Assembly: GCA_018646625.1 (NCBI GenBank)
Contig: JABGUJ010000002.1
Span: forward strand, 288,843 to 352,842
DNA from: Candidatus Woesearchaeota archaeon
Lineage (GTDB): Archaea; Nanobdellota; Nanobdellia; Woesearchaeales; JABGUJ01
Length of the DNA stretch: 64,000 bases
Direction: 5' to 3'
Position 1 is the stretch's first letter, and each line of letters starts with the position of its first letter. Below, in pieces: positions 3,394 through 4,429 of the stretch. Under the pieces are notes generated by a model that worked only from the letters and a program-made list of their open reading frames with translations, had not been told where the DNA came from and made no database searches. The translations under genes and the position numbers were made by a program.

Positions 3394-3481
3394 GATTCCG
3401 ATAGGTTTAAAAAAGAAGCGTTGGTTTTTGAACTTGATTAGGCCCCGATGGTGTAGTCCGGCCAATCATCTTGCCCTCTCG

Positions 3482-3529
3482 AGACAGCGAAAATCAAGAA
3501 TTTTCTTTGCCTTTCGCTTGGTCAGAGAA
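3482..3529 (+). other. tRNA-Glu intron 1, position 37/38
   Basis: A 48-nt intron with a textbook bulge-helix-bulge: exon CTCT (3476-3479) pairs with intron AGAG (3524-3527), the 3-nt bulges are CG^A and AA^A, and the intron body forms GACAGCGAAA against TTTCGCT-tg-GTC. Splicing joins G37 to A38. Confidence 0.9.
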
Positions 3530-3550
3530 AGGCAAGGACTCGGGTTCGAA

Positions 3551-3626
3551 AGAACGTGTGGGTTGATGTTATAAAAACTGGTCAGTTGATCCTTCGCGGG
3601 ATTGTCAAACCCACTGTTATCGAAAG
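3551..3626 (+). other. tRNA-Glu intron 2, T-loop position 59/60, homologous to the tRNA-Lys intron
   Basis: A 76-nt intron splitting the T-loop. Exon TTCG (3545-3548) pairs with intron CGAA (3621-3624), giving bulges AA^A and AG^T directly above the T-stem, so removal creates TTCGAAT. The body closes with AAC/GTT and GTGGGTT/AACCCAC (3558-3564 with 3608-3614), then a small hairpin ATCC/GGAT. It aligns without gaps to the intron at 4293-4368 with 56 of 76 identical; the most conserved stretch contains ACTGGTCAGTTG. Confidence 0.88.
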
Positions 3627-3788
3627 TCCCGATCGGGGCATTTTCTTATTAAAAGATATACACATAATAATGGTTCAACCGTGTTGGATTCGATACGATT
3701 ATATTGAAATTAGGAATTAAGTCATTTACAATATCTCATCTCAAATGGACCAATGCAACGACTAACTCAGCTAAAAAAGGATTCACAG

Positions 3789-4166
3789 TTATTTCTTCTT
3801 AGATCTTTTTTTCTTTGAATTACTCGCAAAACACTTAAAGAAATCGAAATCTCTAGAGCCATCTGAGTTTTTACGAAAAGTAGCCATATTTAGTTTTCTT
3901 TCAATAAGTGGGCGTTTGCATTCTAAGTTTTTGATTCTTTTATCATATGACTTTACTTGTTTCAAATATCCAGATCTCGATAACTTATTTTTATTGTTAT
4001 GATCTTTTCTTGCTTTTATTTTGAGGCAAACCAAATCTTTGTGCTGATTTCCTAATCTACACATTTCAGCCTTTAGCGCTCTTACATATAGTCTCCAACA
4101 AATAACTATAAACACAAAAATCACCAAAACAAGCATCAGAACTGAAATTTTCACACCTCTTGACAT
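3789..4166 (-). CDS. Small membrane-anchored basic protein, unknown function
   Basis: I do not recognise this 125-residue protein. It has one N-terminal membrane segment (about residues 8-28), then a Lys/Arg/Cys-rich helical region likely to form a coiled coil in the cytoplasm or outside (residues 30-95), and a very basic tail SKKKRSKKK. It lies alone between the two intron-bearing tRNA genes. The ATG at 4166 has no strong ribosome site. It could be a real lineage-specific gene; composition is coding-like but support is modest. Confidence 0.5.
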   Translation of the reverse strand: MSRGVKISVLMLVLVIFVFIVICWRLYVRALKAEMCRLGNQHKDLVCLKIKARKDHNNKNKLSRSGYLKQVKSYDKRIKNLECKRPLIERKLNMATFRKNSDGSRDFDFFKCFASNSKKKRSKKK

Positions 4167-4278
4167 TTAACAATGTCTCACCAAGATAATTACGTTATAT
4201 CCTTTATATGTTTTACTGAATGGTTATTAGAATGCTACAAAAACTCTCCCGACAATGTTTACGGGGAATATACAGTCA

Positions 4279-4429
4279 TGGGCCCGAAGGGACTTTCGAA
4301 GAGTGTAGGTTTAACAGTCCCGCTAGGAACCAACTGACCAGTTTTTACAATGTAAACCCACTTCTCTTTTCGAACCCTCGACCCTCCGGTTAAGAGCCGG
4401 ATGCTCTAACCAGACTGAGCCACGGGCCC
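4279..4429 (-). tRNA. tRNA-Lys(CTT) with T-loop intron
   Basis: On the minus strand GGGCCCG pairs with CGGGCCC, discriminator A, no encoded CCA. D-arm GCTCAGTCTGGTTAGAGC, anticodon stem TCCGG/CCGGA, loop CTCTTAA with anticodon CTT (Lys). There is no anticodon intron; instead a 76-nt intron splits the T-loop between positions 59 and 60. After removal the tRNA is 75 nt with T-stem GAGGG/CCCTT and loop TTCGAAT. Standard tRNA search tools may miss or mis-fold it. The surrounding stretch 4167-4278 and 4430-4519 shows no further gene. Confidence 0.93.
4293..4368 (-). other. tRNA-Lys intron, T-loop position 59/60
   Basis: A 76-nt intron with exon TTCG pairing to intron CGAA, bulges AA^A and AG^T, exactly as in tRNA-Glu. 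The body forms GAG/CTC and GTGGGTTTA/TAAACCTAC stems, with a bulged nucleotide at the same place as in the Glu intron, and a hairpin GTTCC/GGGAC. Same length as the Glu intron, 56 of 76 positions identical, and stem positions change in a compensatory manner. Confidence 0.88.

Follow-up and report, generated by a model that had tools for sequence, protein, structure and literature searches.

The 64,000-nt stretch of woesearchaeal DNA analysed here (the window) holds two tRNA genes of different isotypes, tRNA-Glu(CTC) and tRNA-Lys(CTT), with similar introns in their T-loops, which raises the question of whether an intron moved between tRNA genes, by transposition or gene conversion, or whether the RNA that it encodes is itself under selection. 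The window belongs to a 1.57 Mb archaeal assembly (G000; 4 contigs, 96% complete) whose host is a woesearchaeon (DPANN; order Woesearchaeales), not a member of the Thermoproteales.

Related T-loop introns in two tRNA genes

The 76-nt introns at site 59/60 described in the first-pass annotation were recovered in both genes, on opposite strands and within the interval given there (Table 1), with each insert lying between A59 and T60. They aligned without gaps and with 56 of 76 identical bases, as previously counted, and shared the reported bulge-helix-bulge (BHB) motif, in which the exon TTCG pairs with the intron CGAA between the bulges AA^A and AG^T, giving a canonical 3-4-3 BHB (4-bp central helix, 3-nt bulges) at each junction. 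The covariation of stem pairs noted between the two introns (AAC/GTT and GAG/CTC) was reproduced and continued in a third copy (AAT/ATT). Splicing out the inserts yielded Glu and Lys tRNAs that were perfect for ARAGORN, with the expected TTCGAAT loop, and intact tRNAs were likewise obtained from the spliced Gly and Ala sequences presented below. Run with default settings on the unspliced window, ARAGORN detected none of its intron-split tRNAs; genes of this sort escape tRNA finders.

Table 1. Coordinates of the tRNA genes, introns and pairing segments. Positions refer to the window unless a contig is given.
Feature	Coordinates	Strand	Evidence
tRNA-Glu(CTC) gene, with two introns	3442..3640	+	ARAGORN: spliced form is a perfect tRNA-Glu(ctc)
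Canonical 37/38 intron of tRNA-Glu(CTC), 48 nt, outside the RNA family	3482..3529	+	ARAGORN on the T-loop-spliced gene: (ctc)i(41,48)
T-loop intron (59/60) of tRNA-Glu(CTC), 76 nt, family copy 1	3551..3626	+	Model R3, 65.7 bits
Pairing segment AACTGGTCAGTT of the Glu copy, exact reverse complement of the Gly-copy segment	3576..3587	+	
tRNA-Lys(CTT) gene	4279..4429	-	ARAGORN: spliced form is a perfect tRNA-Lys(ctt)
T-loop intron (59/60) of tRNA-Lys(CTT), 76 nt, family copy 2	4293..4368	-	Model R3, 65.8 bits
Pairing segment AACTGGTCAGTT of the Lys copy	4332..4343	-	
Family copy 3 in tRNA-Gly(TCC), 77 nt, same 59/60 site, outside the window	G000:C2:53438-53525	-	Whole-genome search; segment AACTGACCAGTT

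Other introns and splicing enzymes of the host genome

When the other tRNAs of the genome were searched for the 76-nt family, a third member was found in tRNA-Gly(TCC). The Glu and Lys copies retrieved each other and this third copy above chance, with E-values of about 1e-10 to 1e-11, and the three copies were 73-78% identical, so that related introns occupy different isotypes of one genome. The scan of the 96% complete assembly turned up no intron-free Glu(CTC) or Lys(CTT) gene that could make the split genes pseudogenes, nor a second Gly(TCC) gene.

Further inserts were noted in other tRNA genes of this genome. In the 16S-23S spacer on contig C4, tRNA-Ala(TGC) possessed a 33-nt intron (L040, about 437-469), also at 59/60 and with the same TTCG/CGAA BHB, that is not a clear family member. 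A tRNA-Lys(TTT) gene (L041 273-363; C1:129285-129362), misread as Pro by ARAGORN, had a D-loop insert of about 16 nt, probably a non-canonical intron, and a tRNA-Leu-like gene on contig C3 (L038, about 415-530) had an apparent T-loop insert, with a truncated similar copy just upstream.

The genome possessed two RtcB-like genes and a single EndA gene, a 177-aa ORF that matches the alpha subunit of homotetrameric enzymes in size and is consistent with the strict alpha4 type. EndA of the homotetrameric type requires canonical BHBs (type rule, PMC4033280).

Distribution of the RNA family

A covariance model built from the Glu, Lys and Gly introns (R1) detected relatives elsewhere in the order, as the first-pass annotation had suggested checking, and was rebuilt with these relatives as R2 and R3. 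Searches with R2 and R3 gave convincing members in 40 of 353 genomes, with about 12-14 candidates scored per genome in the large scans, so that absence from a genome is weak evidence. Most carriers (35) belonged to one family (f24), in which 35 of 49 listed genomes had the element, usually in one or two copies. Beyond f24 its occurrence was patchy, with five genomes (G000, G079, G218, G223 and G351) from five other families. Weak covariance matches at L063 and L066-L068 and a further one in G041 were judged to be chance, as they had no flanking stem or the wrong core.

Scanning 84,980 species genomes for the pattern returned 26 matches, of which 21 were Woesearchaeota/Nanoarchaeota records, all confirmed by the covariance model; the five bacterial matches scored at most 21 bits with R2 or not at all, and are about the number expected by chance. 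Outside the order, no member was found in samples drawn across the class and the phylum (about 12-13 candidates scored per genome). Among viral contigs (IMG/VR), 89 pattern matches were obtained and 80 loci were rescanned with the covariance model, none being real (best 22 bits, E 0.063; E-values from covariance searches are approximate). In the window and 17 carrier loci, Rfam 15 gave only tRNA at gathering score, leaving the RNA family unmatched, and a literature search of papers available without subscription returned none on such introns in Woesearchaeota. The tRNA-carried element is a predicted structured RNA family of about 62-77 nt, previously unlisted and without Rfam match.

Order-wide pattern matches also brought up other T-loop (59/60) intron families, unrelated by eye and without Rfam match, each recurring either among several tRNAs of a single genome or across related genomes (G056 x3; G083/G084/G082/G086/G202; G131 x3; G142/G152/G155; G160/G161 x2/G173; G065/G189/G220). 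Since several of these are multi-copy, the spread of T-loop introns appears to be common in the order.

Two genomic contexts and one RNA structure

Among the 49 distinct copies, 14 were T-loop introns, borne by Gly(TCC), Gly(GCC), Glu(CTC), Lys(CTT), Arg(CCT) and Arg(TCT) tRNAs, and 35 stood alone in no tRNA. One T-loop intron, in a tRNA-Gly of G176 (L102:5324-5456), was enlarged by about 55 nt through an inverted repeat (TGTCAAAAA...TTTTTGACA) inserted directly before the self-complementary segment.

Two classes of copies were distinguished. Class A copies were preceded, at a distance of about 50 nt, by the motif GTGGTAAGAAAnnnTTATATA, a putative promoter: it occurred exactly seven times in 11 genomes, six of them at the element itself, and not at all in the reversed control. 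The single additional match lay before a protein gene in G151, and a wider regulon was rejected. Class B copies had T-arm-like ends and were found either alone or inside tRNAs; both classes occurred together in six genomes (G146, G148, G153, G176, G178 and G181). Stand-alone copies were enclosed by private flanking stems, whose own arms paired with a mean of -13.3 kcal/mol, compared to -6.1 for arms mixed between loci, and the central helix of their BHB varied in sequence while its pairing was kept (TTCG/CGAA, TGCG/CGCA, TACG/CGTA). At L083 (G139 C2) and L092 (G138 C86) there were second copies of unusual form, whose outer stems were weak and which followed a conserved GAGTCGAAAGACRCCTGTTA... 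stretch.

T-loop and stand-alone copies shared the same RNA core: an outer helix in which GUU/AAC is invariant, the junction strand NNUURKAAAA, the self-complementary segment and a hairpin that varies. In an alignment fitted to the model, with related rows and shuffles that ignore this relatedness, both sides changed in 17 of 26 pairs (187 cells, compared to 52.9 in shuffled alignments), and the covariation score was 0.415, compared to 0.165 when shuffled and at most 0.108 with slid partners. The central BHB helix was paired in 94% of cases over 46 rows, with changes at all four pairs. As 35 of the 49 copies lie outside tRNAs and yet keep a covarying BHB, a private stem and often a promoter, the conserved item is the predicted excised RNA and not the tRNA context. 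The element is accordingly, to judge from its sequences, an independent RNA gene family, and of the possibilities first raised for the two introns, selection for the RNA itself gains support.

The same data bear on the alternative that a tRNA intron with a functionless RNA has spread in a purely selfish or neutral manner, by transposition or T-arm gene conversion. Three isotypes were hit in one genome, as such spread would predict; other, unrelated T-loop intron families are multi-copy within single genomes of the order; and intron transposition is known in the Thermoproteales (Fujishima 2010, as cited in PMC4090602 and PMC4033280). The prevalence of stand-alone copies, many of which share the promoter motif, the covarying structure and the presence of the element at one or two copies in most listed genomes of one family argue against it, making such spread unlikely as a full account.

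A self-complementary segment

The 8-nt core segment, usually CCANNUGG, was self-complementary in 48 of 49 copies. Its central dinucleotide was Watson-Crick self-complementary in 44 copies and through wobble pairs in four more, compared to a shuffle expectation of 16.0 (sd 3.0), and none of 20000 shuffles reached the observed 44 of 49. All four Watson-Crick centres occurred among the copies, and six of seven centre types (GC, AT, TA, CG, TG, GT) were self-complementary (P = 0.0009). The positions flanking the centre changed in step (CCA/UGG, CUG/CAG, CCG/CGG, CCU/AGG). Within one genus, G182 and G183 differed by two compensating changes (AATT to ATAT) in an otherwise near-identical RNA. The two central bases are direct neighbours, which precludes a base pair between them in a hairpin, and pairing between RNA molecules is the simplest explanation that these sequence patterns suggest.

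The sole copy that was not self-complementary was the Gly intron of the host genome, whose segment AACTGACCAGTT is the exact reverse complement of the Glu and Lys segment AACTGGTCAGTT. The Gly segment would form a 12-bp duplex of -17.4 kcal/mol with either of them, compared to -8.6 kcal/mol for Gly with itself and -11.2 for Glu or Lys with itself. That class A copies generally pair with their class B paralogues was rejected on account of G178 and G153, in which the two paralogues had different, mismatched palindromes (AATT and AGCT).

A palindrome could also act on the DNA level, as a site that a dimeric protein binds or cuts or one that promotes mobility, without RNA-RNA pairing. The 44 copies with a perfect 8-bp DNA palindrome would suit such a site, and inversion of the segment could explain the difference between the Glu/Lys and Gly copies. 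A centre that runs through all four Watson-Crick combinations as well as U-G and G-U, however, fits base pairing better than a fixed recognition site, and the outer positions co-change too, so that a role restricted to DNA is considered quite unlikely.

Gene neighbourhood of the stand-alone copies

Class A copies were often located between tRNA-Gly(TCC)/ZPR1 and smc, and this locus is therefore probably the ancestral home of the family. The gene order there was ZPR1 - tRNA-Gly - element - smc, and in nine f24 genomes (G138, G139, G153, G158, G171, G172, G181, G183 and G185) the A copy lay 5' of smc on the same strand, at distances from 77 to about 1,760 nt. The recurrent neighbours, which we take by eye from their sequences to be DUF2073, Zn-ribbon, ZPR1 and smc, were rejected as functional partners, as they look like shared synteny only.

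Were the stand-alone form a 5' leader acting in cis, on smc for instance, and its tRNA-borne counterpart a side product, same-strand A copies upstream of smc would be expected, and about nine genomes have one at 77-764 nt, most of these at 77-301 nt. Haloferax offers a precedent for BHB introns in the 5' UTR of an mRNA, with a non-tRNA BHB in HVO_1309 that yields a circle (PMC7714728). In several other genomes (G151, G149, G142, G177, G179, G148, G146 and others), however, smc is not adjacent within the DNA examined, and the tRNA-borne form retains the same core without any mRNA, which makes a leader function very unlikely.

Proposed mechanism and spread

The preferred reading, with a probability of about 0.7, is that both introns represent a family of structured small RNAs in the Woesearchaeales, whose functional unit would be the piece released by EndA, predicted to be probably circular, trans-acting and self-pairing. 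EndA would cut both bulges of the BHB, and an RtcB ligase would join the exons and probably circularise the released RNA of about 62-77 nt. Two RNA copies would then pair by the self-complementary segment, through kissing loops or a duplex of 8-12 bp, as homodimers in most genomes; in the host of the window, the Gly-borne RNA would pair most favourably with that borne by Glu or Lys, as a heterodimer. The dimer would most likely be a trans-acting RNA that binds protein or serves in regulation.

Within tRNAs, the TTCGAA universal to T-loops would provide one strand of the BHB and permit excision from almost any tRNA. An insert ending in CGAAAG should be excisable from any T-loop, which would explain the 59/60 site shared by all tRNA-borne copies. 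Other families in the order also have the copy in Gly(TCC), and those in Glu and Lys turned up in the window's genome only, so that the element has likely spread from tRNA-Gly(TCC) to the two other tRNAs within this lineage. It may have done so by reverse splicing and recombination, or by gene conversion through the T-arm. Movement between tRNA genes, the other possibility raised at first, is thus supported as well, by the use of a single site in Gly, Glu, Lys and Arg tRNAs and by the restriction of the Glu and Lys copies to this one genome.

More tentatively, the family may represent a new class of archaeal non-coding RNA, an EndA-excised circular RNA that acts as a dimer through a self-complementary loop and is produced from its own BHB-flanked gene or, parasitically, from T-loops, with the homodimer turned in the window's genome into a heterodimer split among tRNA introns.

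Relation to known RNAs and introns

Archaeal intron-encoded small RNAs, such as the box C/D guide of the tRNA-Trp intron, are released by EndA and often circular. Like that guide and the circular C/D RNAs, the present family would be a useful RNA borne by tRNA introns, with release by EndA presumed; unlike the tRNA-Trp guide, it has no C/D or H/ACA boxes, a different structure, the T-loop site and stand-alone BHB forms. Known-class guide RNAs inside tRNA introns, for which the C/D precedents speak, are thus most improbable, as a C-box-like motif occurred in five of 49 copies, box C (RUGAUGA) followed by box D (CUGA) in just one and an ACA near the 3' end in four, Rfam gave no match, and a single-stranded junction that differs between lineages is a poor fit to a fixed rRNA target.

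The processing stems of rRNA are non-tRNA substrates of EndA. Like these stems and Haloferax HVO_1309, the stand-alone copies place a BHB outside tRNAs, from which a circle would be released, and differ in that their predicted product belongs to a conserved family of structured RNAs that also occurs as tRNA introns. Retroviral DIS elements form RNA homodimers by a short palindromic loop, and guanidine-II riboswitch hairpins form dimers via short palindromic loops (PMC7544219). The short self-complementary segment is comparable to both, in an unrelated sequence and context, and its dimerisation is suggested by covariation.

Introns have also spread among tRNAs in the Thermoproteales (Fujishima et al. 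2010, as described in PMC4090602 and PMC4033280). As in those descriptions, similar introns occupy corresponding sites in different isotypes and the BHB defines the permissible sites; unlike the introns described there, the present ones have a Woesearchaeales host with a single EndA gene of strict type, and also occur as stand-alone BHB-flanked genes with a self-complementary segment, which were not found in the citing descriptions. New with respect to the literature found are the occurrence of one structured RNA both as a tRNA intron and as a stand-alone BHB gene, its self-complementary segment and its woesearchaeal host.

Implications

tRNA introns are usually regarded as passengers. In the present family, conservation lies with the intron, and the tRNA is one among several carriers. 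The gain and spread of archaeal tRNA introns, a long-open question, becomes testable in a natural series that comprises a stand-alone gene, a gene beside tRNA-Gly, an intron in tRNA-Gly and introns in Glu, Lys and Arg tRNAs. The RNA biology of uncultured DPANN archaea is little known, and within this group the present data point to a family of non-coding RNAs that Rfam lacks and in which covariation speaks for intermolecular RNA pairing.
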